A DNA stretch of 24,703 nt from a virus, in the IMG/VR virus record IMGVR_UViG_3300001460_000191, positions 1 through 24,703 of that record, one strand, 5' to 3'. Both the position numbers and the translations under genes were made by a program. Under the pieces are notes generated by a model. It did not search any database. It had not been told where the DNA came from and saw only the letters and a list, made by a program, of their open reading frames with translations. Of this stretch, positions 1,653-22,047 are shown piece after piece. Position 1 is the stretch's first letter; each line of letters opens with the position of its first letter.

Positions 1653-2061
1653 CAGTAAGAAGACCAGGAAATGCCTCCTCTACGATTGGGCGAGTAATAC
1701 CCTTTGGTGTTTCTTTATTAATCATATCAATAAGTACCAACGCATCTTGAGGATGAACGCCTTCAAGCATTCCCAAGAATAGTTTTTCTCTTTTATATGA
1801 TGGTAGTGTTTCGCATTTTTTTTGACCTTGGACAAAATAAACAAATTGTTTATGTTCTCGATGTAAGCTGGCTGGATAATTGTGTTCTTCGCATGGAGTG
1901 TACGGAGGAGTTCCTCCGGGCAACTTCCATTTGATATTAGAATCCATAGACCCTCTTATAATATCTTTCAATGCCCAAGTCTCATTTTCTTTTAAGACCT
2001 TTACCTTATCGGCTTTATGTCTTTGTTTATCTACTTTTCTTAGTATTTCGAATATATCCAT
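1648..2061 (-). CDS. DUF6433-like conserved phage protein
   Basis: This 137-residue protein begins MDIFEILRKVDKQRHKADKV. It has a middle section around PYTPCEEHNYPASLHREHKQ and a conserved C-terminal half (FVYFVQGQKK..., YKREKLFLGMLEGVHPQDALVL, then GITRPIVEEAFPGLL). The 'KRExLFxxMLEsvhPxdAxlll...KGIT..vVneAFPGL' ending is a signature I associate with the T4-like phage family DUF6433, sometimes loosely linked to a DNA ligase N-terminal-like fold. The function is not established. Its ATG overlaps the TAA of RNase H (TAATG), so the two are translationally coupled and probably both belong to the replication/repair set transcribed from 2947-2975. Confidence 0.7.
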   Translation of the reverse strand: MDIFEILRKVDKQRHKADKVKVLKENETWALKDIIRGSMDSNIKWKLPGGTPPYTPCEEHNYPASLHREHKQFVYFVQGQKKCETLPSYKREKLFLGMLEGVHPQDALVLIDMINKETPKGITRPIVEEAFPGLLTD

Positions 2062-2918
2062 TACTTAATAAATTCCTCTACGGATTCAATCAACATCTTA
2101 CATTGTTTATTTATAAGATAAGGAAGTACACGAGCTGTGTTTTCTGCCGGCACTGTTATCCAAAATTCGTCAATAATTTGATTTTTTAGTTGCTGTGGGG
2201 TTTGTGTAAGATCAATTAGCTTTTCATTGCGTTGATAGTTACGATACCAAGAAGCCGCATATAGTAACTCACCTTCAGATAGATCTTCTATAATAGCTTC
2301 TTTCTTTTTCTTTGATAACGGTGTTTGTCTATCACCATTAACAAAGGTATCATCATGTGATAACACATTAGGGACACCATCGCCAGCATCACCTCTTAAT
2401 ATTTTATCGATGAGGTTAAGCCGCGGATTATCATCCTTTACTTCTTTCTTAGTAAGTGGAGAGAACTGCTTAACATTATTATATTTTTGTAATTGTTTGA
2501 AGTCACCATCAGCAGAAACAATCATAACATCTTCGTGCTGACCAAACTCTTGAGTCTGTTCAACTAAAGTACCGATAATGTCATCGGCTTCGCAACCATC
2601 TATATGGATAACTTTATAGGGAAAGTTTTCTTTGATTTCGTCACGGACTTGACTTAGAATAGACCATGCTTTATTCCAATCAAAGTCTGATGCATCACGG
2701 CTTTTCTTACGGTTGGCTTTGTATTGCGGATAGTATTGTCTACGCCAATTGTTACCAGCATCGCATGCTAATATAATATTGGTACCGTATTGTTCTTTGT
2801 ATCTTTTGCGATACATACGAATAGAATTAAGAATCATATGCCGAATCATAGACTCGTCATTCATTTTCTGTACAATAATATTACTGACAGCAATACCACT
2901 AAAATCCATAATAATCAT
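2061..2918 (-). CDS. rnh: RNase H / 5'-3' flap exonuclease, T4 Rnh type
   Basis: The 285-residue protein is a FEN-1-like nuclease of the T4 RNase H family (T4: about 305 residues), which removes RNA primers and flaps from lagging strands. Acidic metal-site motifs are in the right order: MDFSG (D5), ILACDAGNNWRRQYYPQYKANRKK (about 49-72, including the acid-plus-basic arch region), IDGCEADDIIGTLV (about 105-118), VSADGDFKQLQ (about 133-143) and a RGDAGDGVPNV helix-hairpin-helix entry (about 175-185). GGAG lies 7 nt upstream of the ATG at 2918. A second ATG at codon 4 (MDFSG) is possible but less well spaced. It is the first gene after a sigma70-like promoter. Confidence 0.92.
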   Translation of the reverse strand: MIIMDFSGIAVSNIIVQKMNDESMIRHMILNSIRMYRKRYKEQYGTNIILACDAGNNWRRQYYPQYKANRKKSRDASDFDWNKAWSILSQVRDEIKENFPYKVIHIDGCEADDIIGTLVEQTQEFGQHEDVMIVSADGDFKQLQKYNNVKQFSPLTKKEVKDDNPRLNLIDKILRGDAGDGVPNVLSHDDTFVNGDRQTPLSKKKKEAIIEDLSEGELLYAASWYRNYQRNEKLIDLTQTPQQLKNQIIDEFWITVPAENTARVLPYLINKQCKMLIESVEEFIK

Positions 2919-6346: not shown

Positions 6347-6375
6347 ATTATATATCAAAACGCAATCTTTGTAAA
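6347..6375 (-). promoter_or_regulatory. Sigma70-like promoter upstream of the class II RNR
   Basis: On the minus strand, TTTACA (6375-6370), a 17-nt spacer and TATAAT (6352-6347) lie 41 nt upstream of the RNR start. The spacer overlaps one arm of an inverted repeat (6356-6370 with 6392-6406), which could be an operator or a hairpin. Confidence 0.6.
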
Positions 6376-16149: not shown

Positions 16150-16659
16150 TTACTTGGTTAATTCAAAATAGTTAAATCTAAATGATGCGGCAAAGGTAAT
16201 AAATTCGTTTCCACTTGCAGTTGATTCAAATGCAATGTCACCTAATGATGTAGGTACACAATCAACATACCTTACTCGCTTTGTCTGGTTATTATGACTC
16301 GATAAAATCGATAGAGTAATATCAGCATAAGTCCCAGGTTGACCAGCAGATGCTTGAAATGCTGTACGCTTTGTCATAGGTGTTTCAAGTAATCTACGTA
16401 TCCATTGATACATCTCATCATAACCTTTAAGGTCTTCATCCAATATAATATTACATGCTAGCTCGTTAAAAGTAAGTGCATCACCCGGAAGTGGTACACC
16501 TGCAATTCGAGAATATGGAAGTTCAACTGGATTAAATATCATTCCGGGATGTGTAATATTTTGACAAAAGAATTCAAGGTTAGGAAAGTTACGTCTGTCA
16601 ATAACCAGCTTAAAGCTAGTCGGTTGTAGGTAATTAAAATTTTCAGTTAGTGTTGCCAT
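16150..16659 (-). CDS. Second tail-tube-fold protein (gp19/gp54-like)
   Basis: This 169-residue protein has NYLQPTSFKLVIDRRNFPNL (about 9-28), CQNITHPGMIF, PLPGDALTFNELACNIILDE (about 56-75), GYDEMYQWIRRL and a closing FITFAASFRFNYFEL. 'L.PtsFklvid...fPn...f.q...lPG..........p..GD.l.f..l....ivDEdl.nY..i..WI' is the tail-tube-protein pattern that marine T4-like phages show in gp19 and in related tube-initiator or baseplate-hub proteins. Because a canonical gp19 is present at 22109-22636, this is a paralogue. It could be a tube initiator, a tail terminator or a minor tube component. TATAAATA (16665-16672) lies only 5 nt before the ATG and no good ribosome site is seen. Confidence 0.75.
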   Translation of the reverse strand: MATLTENFNYLQPTSFKLVIDRRNFPNLEFFCQNITHPGMIFNPVELPYSRIAGVPLPGDALTFNELACNIILDEDLKGYDEMYQWIRRLLETPMTKRTAFQASAGQPGTYADITLSILSSHNNQTKRVRYVDCVPTSLGDIAFESTASGNEFITFAASFRFNYFELTK

Positions 16660-16664
16660 ACTCT

Positions 16665-16672
16665 TATTTATA
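16665..16672 (-). promoter_or_regulatory. T4-type late promoter box abutting a start codon
   Basis: TATAAATA on the minus strand ends 5 nt before the ATG at 16659. A late promoter here would start transcription at or next to the start codon, giving a leaderless or near-leaderless mRNA. Confidence 0.45.
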
Positions 16673-16682
16673 TGTTTTTTCC

Positions 16683-16711
16683 TTTACAAACTCAACAAAC
16701 TATGGTATAAT
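16683..16711 (+). promoter_or_regulatory. Plus-strand sigma70-like promoter with extended -10
   Basis: TTTACA (16683-16688), a 17-nt spacer and TATAAT (16706-16711) are preceded by TGG, giving the same TGG-TATAAT extended -10 as the two minus-strand promoters at 1367 and 2947. It points rightwards, against every gene in the window, into the gp23 terminator and the antisense strand of gp23. A purine-rich GGAGAGGGAGG follows at 16723-16733, but no ATG/GTG/TTG start is spaced correctly behind it. Confidence 0.5.
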
Positions 16712-16742
16712 AAACTGTGGTTTGGAGAGGGAGGATACCTAT

Positions 16743-16768
16743 AAAAAAGGACCGGCTTTCGCCGGTCC
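16743..16768 (-). terminator. Rho-independent terminator after gp23
   Basis: On the minus strand, GGACCGGC-GAAA-GCCGGTCC (16768-16749) forms a perfect 8-bp GC-rich stem with a GAAA tetraloop, followed directly by TTTTTT (16748-16743). It begins 25 nt after the gp23 stop codon. This is a textbook intrinsic terminator for the highly expressed capsid transcript. Confidence 0.9.
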
Positions 16769-16793
16769 AGTCTATATTCTATTTTTTTATTCT

Positions 16794-18131
16794 TTATGCA
16801 AGAATATTGTCTACACGGAAGATCCGGTAGTACTGGTTAGTCTTAGCAGTAGCTAGGCCATTAGATGGAGCAGCACCTACGAATGGGTTTGATACCATAC
16901 CGTAACGTGTCTTAAATCCAATTTTTGGCTGGAAGCTTTGCTCACCTACTGCACGGACCATTGTTAGTGGTACGTATGGGCAATAGAAGAGACCTGCATC
17001 ATAAGGGTTAGTTCCCTTATAACCAACATTGACATAGTCCTGAGTTGCATATGGATCAATGTAGACCCGTGTGCGACCATTCATAACACCGGCAAAAGTA
17101 TTGCCAGTATCATCTACTTGCAAGTTGGTTGACATTGCTGGAGTATAGTCAAGCATGCCAGAAGCTGAGAGAGCAGAAGCAACATCTGATGAACAGATCA
17201 TAAAGTTACCTTTACCCCGACGTGTTTCTTTAGCAATTGTGTTAGCTTCACGCTCGATTTGTACGATCAGGCCTTTGAATTTCTCCACTGACCAACGACC
17301 ATCTGCATCTGTTGAGAGGTTGAAGATACCGTTAATTGCTGTGTTAGCAGTTAGTGCACCTGTCTTAGCTTGTGAGTTAACTGTGCGAATAACTTCACGG
17401 TTAATTTCAGCCATGATCTCAGTTGACAGAATGTTAGCCAGTTCTGTTTCAGCATCCAGGCCATGAATGGCTTTAAGATCCTGAGCAAGTTCCAAGCTAT
17501 ATTCTGCTTTCAGTGCCCGTGACTTGGCAGTCACAGTTGCTTTTTCGATGGTGAAACCCATTTCAGCAAAGCTCTCACCAACACCGTCACCCAAAGCTTC
17601 AGCTTCGGCTGTTGAGTATGGATCATTAGCTGCTAGAGGATCAGTACGCTCATCATCAATTGATCCTACACCAGAGGATGAAGAATCAGCCAAACCAGAG
17701 GATGAACCGTTTGCAGTTGTTGCAGAATCTCCGGAGAAGCCAATTGCTGCTTCATTGAAGAGTGCTTCTGCACCGTCTGATACACCTGCCTTTGTCTTTT
17801 CAAAGGTTGACTTCATTGCGAAGATCAAGCCTGTTGGTCCGGACATTGGCTGGACTCCACACATGTCATATGCCATAAGGTTTGGCATAGCACGGCGGAC
17901 AAGAGCAATAAGAACTGGATTCCAGTTAGCAGCATTGCCTGTGTTGTTTGTTGGAGCTGCTTCTGTCATGAATTGGCCTTGGGCCGCTTCTTCTGCGAAT
18001 GCACGCTCTTGGTTTTCTAGAATAGCAGCAGTAACTGCTTTCCGGTGATGATCTTTAATAGTGCCGGCAGACTCTTCGTTCAGTACCGGTGCCCATTTCT
18101 CGATCAGTCGATCGTATGATACGGTTTGCAT
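16794..18131 (-). CDS. 23: Major capsid protein gp23
   Basis: The 445-residue protein is the T4-type major capsid protein (T4: 521 residues). Family landmarks are the N-terminal scaffold-contact region (RLIEKWAPVLNEESAGTIKD), AAILENQERAF, the protease site region GQFMTE|AAPTN, and VRRAMPNLMAYDMCGVQPMS followed by GPTGLIFAMKS. The last is nearly identical to T4's 'MVRRAIPNLIAFDICGVQPMNSPTG'. By analogy with T4 (cleavage after FLTE), gp21 would cut after E57. The C-terminal half contains NFMICSSDVASALSASGML and ends YRIFRVDNILA. The ribosome site (GGAG) is about 10 nt before the ATG. The gene follows gp22 by 18 nt and ends at a strong terminator. Confidence 0.97.
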   Translation of the reverse strand: MQTVSYDRLIEKWAPVLNEESAGTIKDHHRKAVTAAILENQERAFAEEAAQGQFMTEAAPTNNTGNAANWNPVLIALVRRAMPNLMAYDMCGVQPMSGPTGLIFAMKSTFEKTKAGVSDGAEALFNEAAIGFSGDSATTANGSSSGLADSSSSGVGSIDDERTDPLAANDPYSTAEAEALGDGVGESFAEMGFTIEKATVTAKSRALKAEYSLELAQDLKAIHGLDAETELANILSTEIMAEINREVIRTVNSQAKTGALTANTAINGIFNLSTDADGRWSVEKFKGLIVQIEREANTIAKETRRGKGNFMICSSDVASALSASGMLDYTPAMSTNLQVDDTGNTFAGVMNGRTRVYIDPYATQDYVNVGYKGTNPYDAGLFYCPYVPLTMVRAVGEQSFQPKIGFKTRYGMVSNPFVGAAPSNGLATAKTNQYYRIFRVDNILA

Positions 18132-19220: not shown

Positions 19221-19871
19221 CTATTTGAGCAACGAGAGGAAATTCTTAAACTCACGAACTTGTGTCTCATAGAGATCCGCACGAGGAGCTTTCTTAATTT
19301 CAGTCTCCATTATTTCAATTGCTTGTGGTTCAATGATTCCGTTATTCCAAACCCATTCAACACCTTCCATAACTCCATTAACAAAAGCGCTAGGTGCAGA
19401 TGGATCTTGAACGATGTCTACCGCATTAAGAATAAAGTCGTCTTTGACGACCATTGCGTTACCATTGTTCTGCAAGCTTCCCATACCACGAGTTGAAACG
19501 CCTAATCTGACACCACCATCGAGCAAACCTTTTACAATTTGTCCCATAGGAGTTTCCAAAATAGTCGCTTTGCCCACAACATCATTACCTTTCCAATCAA
19601 GGGATTCGATCTTGTGAGAAACTTTGTCTAAATTAACGGTCGGTCCTTCAGGGTGGTTTAACTCACCGACTGCTCTACCTTTTGAAACTTGCTCTGTATT
19701 ATATTTACCGAGTGCTTTTTCCATGATAGGCTTTGGATATATTCGACCGTTACGATTCTTTTGTTCTGCTTGCATGAACACGCCTTCAATAGAATAACTT
19801 TTCCCACCACCTTCTTTTTCTTCGGTGAGAATCTCTAAACTTTGATCTGTATATTCTGCAATCAGTTTCAT
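19221..19871 (-). CDS. 21: Prohead maturation protease gp21
   Basis: The 216-residue protein is the T4 gp21 serine protease (T4: about 212 residues) that cuts the scaffold and capsid proteins during head maturation. Motifs seen are QAEQKNRNGRIYPKPIMEKA (about 35-54), VGELNHPE with the catalytic H73, KATILETPMGQIVKGLL (about 101-117), RLGVSTRGMGS with the nucleophile S126, and AVDIVQDPSAPSAFVN (D152 region). The start at 19871 overlaps the stop of the preceding small gene (ATGA), with AAAGG about 10 nt upstream. No insertion or defect is visible. Confidence 0.95.
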   Translation of the reverse strand: MKLIAEYTDQSLEILTEEKEGGGKSYSIEGVFMQAEQKNRNGRIYPKPIMEKALGKYNTEQVSKGRAVGELNHPEGPTVNLDKVSHKIESLDWKGNDVVGKATILETPMGQIVKGLLDGGVRLGVSTRGMGSLQNNGNAMVVKDDFILNAVDIVQDPSAPSAFVNGVMEGVEWVWNNGIIEPQAIEIMETEIKKAPRADLYETQVREFKNFLSLLK

Positions 19872-20083
19872 TTCTTTGCTGCCTTTATAAATTCTTGGCC
19901 GGCTTTTTTTGCCATACCTAAAGTAGGATACGTATCTAGTTTTTCCATATCAATGTATACACAAAATTTGCCTTTTTCTTTGTGGATCATTAAAGTTTTA
20001 CCATCAACTTTTTTATCGAAAACATGTTCACCAGGCGGCATGCCCTTCTCCATCTTTTCTCTTAGTTGAGTAAATGTTAACAT
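19868..20083 (-). CDS. Small prohead-locus protein in the gp68 position
   Basis: The protein is 71 residues and starts MLTFTQLREKMEKGMPPGEH. It then has VFDKKVDGKTLMIHKEKGKF, CVYIDMEKLDTYPTLGMAKK and a basic AGQEFIKAAKK tail. In T4 the gene between the gp67-like protein and gp21 encodes gp68, a prohead core protein. Here the protein is shorter and sequence similarity to gp68 is not evident, so only its position suggests a core role. The 'v.v.Ihk.kgkF.vYIDg..LD.y......A...' layout recurs at this locus in other marine T4-like phages. A late promoter box (20102-20109) and AAGGA lie upstream. Confidence 0.7.
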   Translation of the reverse strand: MLTFTQLREKMEKGMPPGEHVFDKKVDGKTLMIHKEKGKFCVYIDMEKLDTYPTLGMAKKAGQEFIKAAKK

Positions 20084-20101
20084 TTTACAATCCTTTAGCT
20101 T

Positions 20102-20109
20102 TATTTATA
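20102..20109 (-). promoter_or_regulatory. T4-type late promoter box
   Basis: TATAAATA on the minus strand lies in the 52-nt gap between the gp67-like gene and the 71-residue gene, 18 nt before the latter's ATG. It could drive the gp21-gp22-gp23 block. Confidence 0.55.
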
Positions 20110-20135
20110 CTTTTATTACTTTTTACTTAAAAGAA

Positions 20136-20489
20136 TTATTCTTCTTCTTGATCATCTTCGGTGGCTTCGTCATCAGATTCTTCTTCATCATCTTCCTCTT
20201 CATCGCCATCTTCTGTGTCAAGCTCAAGTTCGAGCTGATCGTCATCCTCATCCCCCAACTCGTCATCTTCATCAACATCGTCATCTTCTTCTGCTCCGTT
20301 GAAAAGTTGATCAGCCAATTTAATTTTTTCTTGATCTAATAAATCGTTTTGCCTAACTGTCATGACATCACCAAAGATCTTATTGGCACCGTTATAATCT
20401 TGCTCTAGAGCATTTGCAATCAAATCTTTAATATAGTCATTAGGTTCTGAAACTGCATTCTCAGCTTCTTGCGCGTCTACTTCACTCAC
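20136..20489 (-). CDS. 67: Prohead core protein gp67-like, GTG start
   Basis: The protein is 117 residues. It has a helical N-terminal part (DYIKDLIANALEQDYNGANK, then IFGDVMTVRQNDLLDQEKIK and LADQLFNGAEE) and a C-terminal half made almost only of Asp/Glu. T4 gp67 has the same plan ('L.AARKLFAEAMAARTIDLIKEEKI' followed by an acidic tail), so this is the prohead core protein PIP homologue, longer than T4's (about 80 residues). An ATG exists at 20495, but it directly abuts the AAGGAG ribosome site. The GTG two codons later (20489) is spaced 6 nt and is preferred. The start overlaps the end of gp20 by 8 nt. Confidence 0.85.
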   Translation of the reverse strand: MSEVDAQEAENAVSEPNDYIKDLIANALEQDYNGANKIFGDVMTVRQNDLLDQEKIKLADQLFNGAEEDDDVDEDDELGDEDDDQLELELDTEDGDEEEDDEEESDDEATEDDQEEE

Positions 20490-22047
20490 TGTCATCTCCT
20501 TGTACAGGTTTCAATTCAAATTTTTGTGATGGTGCTTCTTGATCCTGTGGCTCTTCCTCAGGCTTTTCTTCTTGTTCACCATTGATTTCTTTATTCATCT
20601 TTTCTACGTCTTCATCAGAAAGCATAAGTACATTCTTTTGAATCCACTCTTTAGAGAAATACTCTCCAGCATAGTTATTGATTTGATCGAGTGTTTGTAC
20701 TCTTTCTCTCAATACTTCCATATCCCGTAATTCTGTAAAGTGGTTATCCCTTACATAGTCAACGGTAATATCATTTTTCCAATCTTCCCAATCTTCTTCA
20801 GTAATAATACCTTTTAGAATAAGTTGAGTTTTTAGAATACCATAGAATAGATGAGCAAACCTCATACGTAATCTATCGATAAACTTTTGGAATTTTAATT
20901 CATCTCTATTTACCTCAGTAGATCTACCAAGATTAAATTGATTTTCTTGTTCTAATCGATTAAGTGGTACATTTAATGAACGGTAAACTTTCTTTTGAAA
21001 GAAAATTACATCATCAATTTGTCCAAGGTTTTCTCCACCCGGAAGTGTAGATATCTCTGTGCCTTTACCACCTTCACGGCGAGGCAACCAGAAGTCTTCT
21101 AGCATTGACATATGTTTACGGTCATCTTTAATTTGACCAGTTGCTGCATCATACACAAGCTTATTACGATACTTAGTCATAATATCTTTCATATATTGTT
21201 CAGCTTTACCACGTGGTAAGCTACCAACATCTACATAAAAGATTCTTCGCTCGGGTGCACGTGCGAGGCGATAGATAACTAATGAGTCTTCCATCATTCG
21301 CAATTGATTAATAGGCTTTAAAGCTTTATGCAAAAATGAAATAATTTTTTTACGATCTTCACTAAGCAAACCAGATGTAACATAACTTACTGCATCATTT
21401 GTCATTTTTACACCGGATGTAGATGACCCTGGCTTTTCTTGGAAGATATAAAACTCTTCGGTATTCTCAATAATATCTGCACCGGTTACCGGATCTTTTT
21501 TCTTCTTAATCTTTTTGACCTTGCGCATTTTAGCAGCATCAATAGGTCGTATTTCTTGAATACCTTCTTTAGGATTTGCTTCATTTAAAACAAGATGGTG
21601 ATAGATTCTTCCATCCACATACCACCTACGGAAAATATCATGACCTAACTCTTTAAAGTTAAGCATTCCATATATGTTATCAAATTCTTCTGTAATTTTC
21701 TTTTTAATAGAATCAGGAGCTTTTACTTCCTCCATATTCAATTCTAAAGTTTGTTCTAACTGGCTACCAGTAATTGACTCGTTTACAATATCTTCAATAG
21801 CAGCATCAACTTCAGGATGCATTGCATTACCGCGATATTTCATTATCAATTGATAGTTGTCTTTTGAATCGTCATCACCTAGATTCAGGTACTGACCATA
21901 GTGCGAACCAGATGCAGTTGCATAACTACCACCTTCATCATCCCTAGGAGGAACGACAGATGGTAACTTCATCTCATCTTTCTTTTTTGCGCGCTTTATT
22001 TCAAAACCAAATAGTTTAACGCCGTCTTGTCCTGATTGTTCTGCCAT
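20482..22047 (-). CDS. 20: Portal vertex protein gp20
   Basis: The 521-residue protein (T4: 524) is the dodecameric portal through which DNA is packaged. Family stretches include YRGNAMHPEVDAAIEDIVNE (about 69-88), FDNIYGMLNFKELGHDIFRR, WYVDGRIYHHLVL, DSLVIYRLARAPERRIFYVD (about 257-276), VGSLPRGKAEQYM, DFWLPRREGGKGTEISTLPG (about 318-337) and RLRMRFAHLF. These match the T4-like portal consensus closely. AAGG lies 8 nt before the ATG. It is preceded by a terminator-like hairpin after gp19, and its stop overlaps the gp67-like start. Confidence 0.97.
   Translation of the reverse strand: MAEQSGQDGVKLFGFEIKRAKKKDEMKLPSVVPPRDDEGGSYATASGSHYGQYLNLGDDDSKDNYQLIMKYRGNAMHPEVDAAIEDIVNESITGSQLEQTLELNMEEVKAPDSIKKKITEEFDNIYGMLNFKELGHDIFRRWYVDGRIYHHLVLNEANPKEGIQEIRPIDAAKMRKVKKIKKKKDPVTGADIIENTEEFYIFQEKPGSSTSGVKMTNDAVSYVTSGLLSEDRKKIISFLHKALKPINQLRMMEDSLVIYRLARAPERRIFYVDVGSLPRGKAEQYMKDIMTKYRNKLVYDAATGQIKDDRKHMSMLEDFWLPRREGGKGTEISTLPGGENLGQIDDVIFFQKKVYRSLNVPLNRLEQENQFNLGRSTEVNRDELKFQKFIDRLRMRFAHLFYGILKTQLILKGIITEEDWEDWKNDITVDYVRDNHFTELRDMEVLRERVQTLDQINNYAGEYFSKEWIQKNVLMLSDEDVEKMNKEINGEQEEKPEEEPQDQEAPSQKFELKPVQGDDSE

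Follow-up and report, generated by a model that had tools for sequence, protein, structure and literature searches.

The closest described systems to the locus reported here are the bacteriophage T4 replication origins oriF (ori(uvsY)) and oriG (ori(34)). Each requires about 100 bp including a promoter, and the RNA made there forms an R-loop and then primes the leading strand (PMC3016281). In T4 this RNA is probably processed by RNase H, and at late times UvsW removes the R-loops (PMC3016281). In the minimal sequence of each origin, the promoter is followed by an A+T-rich unwinding element. No sequence motif is common to the T4 origins, and what governs R-loop formation at them is counted among the open questions (PMC3016281). 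In the T4 annotation (AF158101), uvsW is on the plus strand and the oriF primer transcript is on the minus strand, reading back toward uvsW from downstream, and the primer RNA of oriG runs opposite to gene 34. The initial transcript of oriF is not G-rich. For the marine T4-like phages, the literature searched mentions only one predicted origin, that of Syn9 (PMC2984593).

The window, the whole stretch of DNA analyzed here, comes from a T4-like phage and is an IMG/VR fragment of 24.7 kb; by gp23 DNA, the nearest record in GenBank is that of Phage C48C1 (Kyanoviridae), at 73%. The preliminary description had placed all genes on the minus strand and a rightward promoter, TTTACA-17-TATAAT with an extended -10, at 16683-16711 behind the major capsid gene. 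The minus strand indeed carries all large ORFs, and every element of the promoter is found where it had been placed (Table 1).

Table 1. Features of the plus-strand element and of the genes and signals discussed with it, in window coordinates
Feature	Position	Strand	Remarks
T4-type RNase H (rnh)	2061..2918	-	PF02739, PF09293
gp19-like (tail tube) gene	16150..16659	-	Syntenic C48C1 homologue annotated as tail tube; Pfam search without match; divergent from element
T4-type late promoter TATAAATA of gp19-like gene	16665..16672	-	Back to back with element
-35 hexamer TTTACA	16683..16688	+	Invariant in 10-sequence clade alignment
Extended -10 TATGG	16701-16705	+	End of 17-nt spacer
-10 hexamer TATAAT	16706..16711	+	Invariant in clade
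Inverted repeat AAAC-TGTG-GTTT	16712..16723	+	Spans predicted start site, ~16717-16718
G-rich purine tract GGAGAGGGAGGA of predicted transcript	16724..16735	+	G-rich across 89 elements; only purine-to-purine changes in clade
ATACC, end of conserved block	16735..16739	+	Family consensus TATACC / ATACTA
GC-rich hairpin	16749..16768		Minus strand: gp23 intrinsic terminator; position and form kept in nearly all relatives
Major capsid protein gp23	16794..18131	-	PF07068, E 5e-145; antisense to any rightward read-through

The promoter has a consensus score of 11/12, which in the 18.7 kb scanned is matched by only one other site, at 6375 on the minus strand, upstream of the ribonucleotide reductase gene. 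TGTGGTATAAT, the extended -10 that had been described as shared with the promoters before rnh and before the gene at 1335, is present at both (2955 and 1375, minus strand). However, promoter-like sites in the window are not in excess over shuffles (46 versus 54.6 ± 8.8), so that a consensus match on its own is weak evidence. A further promoter-like site on the plus strand (20084-20111, TTTACA-16-TATACT, 10/12) occupies the gap between the minus-strand genes at 19868-20083 and 20136-20495. With a sequence model of the element family, the window element, itself a member of the training set, scored 43.6 bits, and the ordinary promoters of the window scored at most 18.

Downstream of the -10, the plus strand carries, in order, AAACTGTGGTTT, GGAGAGGGAGG, ATACC, and the GC-rich hairpin. 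GGAGAGGGAGG (16724-16734) is the purine-rich, Shine-Dalgarno-like stretch to which the preliminary description had drawn attention, and it is followed by no usable start codon, as stated there. The same description had the predicted RNA run into a hairpin shared with the gp23 terminator. The hairpin is there and serves the minus strand; read in the plus-strand sense, it has no T-run directly after it, a run of seven T residues beginning only ∼20 nt later, and thus it is not a canonical rightward terminator. A plus-strand transcript would run through it.

The gp23/gp19 gap, or the 3' end of gp23, was read in some 100 relatives. Nearly all of them have the terminator hairpin and the late promoter TATAAATA at gp23/gp19, and the plus-strand promoter with its purine block is found in this gap only in the closest clade, consisting of the window and nine further sequences (L083-L091), where it is present in 10/10. 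The -35, the -10, and their spacing are invariant in the alignment of all ten, whereas the 17-nt spacer varies at several positions at constant length and the flanks vary too. Changes within the tract are limited to purine-to-purine substitutions or an inserted purine. This pattern argues for selection on the promoter and the tract rather than recent identity. A BLASTN search of the 70-bp element against GenBank phages gave only weak chance matches, the sequence being too diverged for BLASTN. The surroundings of the element in this clade are themselves rearranged on a large scale. In the window (16150-3990, minus strand) and in G001/G002, tail-fiber-like genes and ribonucleotide reductase lie 3' of gp19, where relatives instead have uvsY-uvsW-gp55, and gp55, uvsW, and uvsY are absent from the 40- to 44-kb contigs of the clade.

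A DNA pattern search located the block TATGGTATAATAAACTGTGG in another contig, L166, between a gene for a 161-amino-acid protein and gp55, the late sigma factor gene. The gene order in L166 is gp23, gp19, uvsY, uvsW, the 161-amino-acid gene, the element, and gp55, with the element pointing away from gp55. It is nearly identical to the element of the window clade, yet it lies upstream of gp55 and not at gp23/gp19, which suggests that the element acts independently of its neighbors. Other matches to the pattern (L170-L173, L175-L177, L179, and L180) were chance occurrences in unrelated sequence, mostly inside genes. A resemblance of TAATAAACTGTGGTTTAGGGAGA in L166 to a T7-type promoter was also considered and dropped, since the GGGAGA part has drifted in other phages and the -35 is conserved at 17-nt spacing, as fits a sigma-70 promoter.

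In most relatives the element is located as in L166, in the gap that separates gp55 from a small gene downstream of uvsW, and it is directed away from gp55. Among the best 80 gp55 loci surveyed, a promoter directed away from gp55 was called in 78, and the tract followed by (T)ATACC or ATACTA was present in most. Controls were run on 76 gp55 loci, with the purine tract defined as a 9/10 purine window containing five or more G. A promoter scoring at least 11/12 was found in 85.5% of these loci, compared with 2.8% of dinucleotide shuffles and 5.7% of other stretches of the same loci; promoter and tract together were found in 65.8%, compared with 0% of either control. The same divergent promoter is present in the isolated Kyanoviridae P-SSM2, ACG-2014a, ACG-2014d, S-RIM8, Syn1, Sf-CH11, DSL-LC03, and C48C1, with a weaker start and tract (AAC..TGTAAGGGTT) in most; in Methylophilales phage Melnitz a candidate -10 and start region can be recognized. 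The preliminary description had proposed looking for the -35, the -10, and the purine block in related phages, and they are conserved there, both in the ten-sequence clade and at the gp55 loci. Clade invariance and a recurrence at gp55 far above controls rule out, at the level of sequence comparison, a chance origin of the promoter, and the earlier view that this is a true orphan promoter, directed rightward and with a purine-rich, noncoding start, is strongly supported. By the same comparison, window positions 16683-16739 (plus strand) are a copy of a conserved, noncoding orphan promoter module of marine T4-like phages, which in the window clade has moved to the gp23/gp19 gap.

The anatomy of the module was derived from 89 distinct elements. 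A conserved -35, TKTACA, stands in the -30 region. At positions 16 to 23 after the -10, corresponding to about +10 to +17 of the RNA, G makes up 53 to 67%, C 0 to 9%, and T 2 to 11%. An inverted repeat at the start site is a probable further component, with stems of at least 5 bp in 33% of the elements against 4.1 ± 2.1% in a control of chimeras, made by joining halves from different phages, which does not take out shared ancestry. The stems have many different sequences and vary in length and register, and more than half of the elements lack even a 4-bp stem. Covariation tests at fixed register were borderline or negative, as would follow from the variable length and register, and the register-free chimera test alone was clearly positive. 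The left arm of the repeat lies upstream of the expected start and so the repeat would act in DNA, for example in the displaced strand, rather than in RNA.

The module might act locally, its divergent promoter influencing the neighbors through antisense RNA to the gene that it faces, through transcription interference, or through negative supercoiling that stimulates the back-to-back promoter (of gp55 or the late promoter of gp19). In both of its homes the next gene indeed has its promoter back to back with the module, and the gene before is read antisense. However, those neighbors differ between phages, being gp23/gp19 in one case and gp55 and the gene after uvsW in the other, and nearly all relatives lack the element at gp23. 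Moreover, a model scan of long contigs detected the copy at gp55 and, in some of them, another, full-length copy; one of these (G007 61234-61295, plus strand; L287:1501-1562) lies antisense inside an unrelated gene of 281 amino acids. Antisense transcription or supercoiling alone would also leave the conserved tract and start-site repeat unexplained, and we regard a local role as unlikely. The narrower proposal in the preliminary description, an antisense regulator specific to gp23, is likewise unlikely because the homologous element elsewhere faces the gene between uvsW and gp55. In G011 (L281), the homologue of the 281-amino-acid gene instead starts with an ordinary promoter.

A further reading is that descent has preserved an ordinary promoter and the ribosome-binding leader of a gene that is either lost or tiny. 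Early genes of these phages do have short leaders with purine-rich Shine-Dalgarno stretches. A start at G008:25256 (minus strand) is similar to that of the module and is followed by the ATG of a 121-amino-acid gene, and in G009 (IMGVR_UViG_3300025684_000015) a copy of the module (L288 1563-1501, minus strand) is followed by an ORF of 41 codons and a permuted tmRNA gene, suggesting that the module can also act as an ordinary promoter. Across the 89 elements, however, there is no conserved ORF after the tract: 24 have no start codon in reach, and the ORFs of the remainder have a median of 14 codons, are no longer than those in other frames, and are mutually unlike. A relic would not retain its -35, -10, and tract across dozens of diverged phages, and we consider this explanation highly improbable. 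The suggestion of a relic of a lost rightward gene fares poorly on the same grounds, as the element is conserved in dozens of phages without any conserved ORF. The tmRNA gene of G009 (L288:1080-1348, minus strand), about 150 nt downstream of the module, is of the permuted alphaproteobacterial type (Rfam RF01849, 102.6 bits) and was missed by ARAGORN; its type suggests an alphaproteobacterial host for that phage.

The main rival to the reading that we prefer is a trans-acting small RNA, a short early transcript whose purine stretch would pair with C/U-rich targets, either the 16S anti-Shine-Dalgarno sequence or mRNAs, and so change translation of the host or the phage. Conservation within the transcribed part is highest in a purine-rich, Shine-Dalgarno-like stretch, and the sequence of the element was kept after its move to another gap, as expected for a trans-acting gene. 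Cyanophages are also known to have antisense and noncoding RNAs, such as CfrI of S-PM2 (PMC2984593). CfrI resembles a transcript from the module in being an antisense RNA of a marine T4-like phage; it differs in its length (∼225 nt), in lying at another place, where it is antisense to both psbA and the gene of a homing endonuclease, and in having no reported purine tract (PMC2984593). Against a small RNA, conservation stops ∼30 nt past the start, with no conserved RNA body or T-run terminator after the tract, and the next plus-strand hairpin in the window has no adjacent T-run. Rfam gave nothing above the gathering threshold at the element, the subthreshold matches in the window being judged chance. 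The ribosome-titrating RNA envisaged in the preliminary description meets the same objection, and overall we think a small RNA possible but somewhat unlikely.

An element that keeps its own sequence amid changing neighbors, with no conserved ORF or RNA, points to an autonomous cis-acting unit consisting of a promoter and the first transcribed bases. The best explanation, to which we assign a probability of roughly 45%, is that the module is a transcription-primed (R-loop) replication origin of the T4 type. Judging from the promoter, host RNA polymerase with a sigma-70-type factor would start a short rightward RNA near 16717 early in infection. The first 10 to 20 nt of this RNA would be G-rich purines, tending to stay paired with the template. 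A G-rich purine start of a transcript favors R-loops. The phage RNase H may then trim the R-loop RNA, leaving a primer from which the leading strand is made, as at oriF and oriG of T4.

Several features of the module are consistent with such an origin. As in oriF and oriG, a core promoter with a sigma-70 -10 motif lies within about 100 bp, and there are genes for RNase H (rnh, in the window) and for UvsW (with uvsY, in the gene cluster next to the element in relatives). For the family as a whole, the module is orphan or antisense relative to late genes and near uvsW-uvsY. In most relatives it lies beside uvsW/gp55, and its transcript would arise downstream of uvsW and read back toward it, as that of oriF does; in the window clade the copy sits at gp23/gp19, and its RNA would run against gp23, a late structural gene, as the orphan RNA of oriG does against gene 34. 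The position of uvsY differs between the two groups: in T4 (AF158101 112500-116500) it lies downstream of uvsW but on the other strand, and in Kyanoviridae (C48C1, L082 1-6000) it lies upstream on the same strand. Despite the differing order, both have a promoter downstream of uvsW that is directed the opposite way.

The module is also unlike the T4 origins in several respects. No MotA box is found at the element, TKTACA standing in its place as the -35, and cyanomyoviruses lack motA (PMC2984593). For this reason, we describe the module as working like a T4 origin and do not file it in the MotA-dependent class. No clear A+T-rich unwinding element lies downstream on average, the AT fraction being 0.53 at +10 to +24 and then about the local mean; the AT-rich part of the elements lies upstream on average, and downstream AT richness in the window appears only at +55 to +69 (0.93). 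The G-rich purine tract and the start-site inverted repeat are missing from oriF, and oriF also drives uvsY, whereas the transcript of the module has no gene. GC and AT skews, which are dominated by the coding strand, do not switch at the element in G007, G008, G009, C48C1, or ACG-2014d; T4 oriA and oriC likewise lie outside skews (PMC3016281).

A parallel in mode of working only may be drawn with the LSP-CSBII heavy-strand origin of vertebrate mitochondria. CSBII is G-rich, more so than the tract described here, and it lies much further from its promoter; the two systems have no common descent. At the mitochondrial origin, the transcript from the promoter forms a stable R-loop and yields a replication primer after RNase H1 action (PMC6317783).

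More tentatively still, we suggest that Kyanoviridae and their uncultured relatives may have in common a sequence-defined, transcription-primed origin, in which an orphan sigma-70 promoter is combined, in a movable unit of ∼60 bp, with an inverted repeat at the start site and a tract of G-rich purines, the tract serving to stabilize the primer RNA. No earlier description of the conserved orphan promoter module was found in the sources searched. If it is an origin, the module offers a conserved, compact, and movable candidate in abundant ocean viruses, and cultured cyanophages would allow the R-loop question to be tested. Should it prove not to be an origin, a conserved noncoding promoter beside the late sigma factor gene would still be a new regulatory element in these phages.
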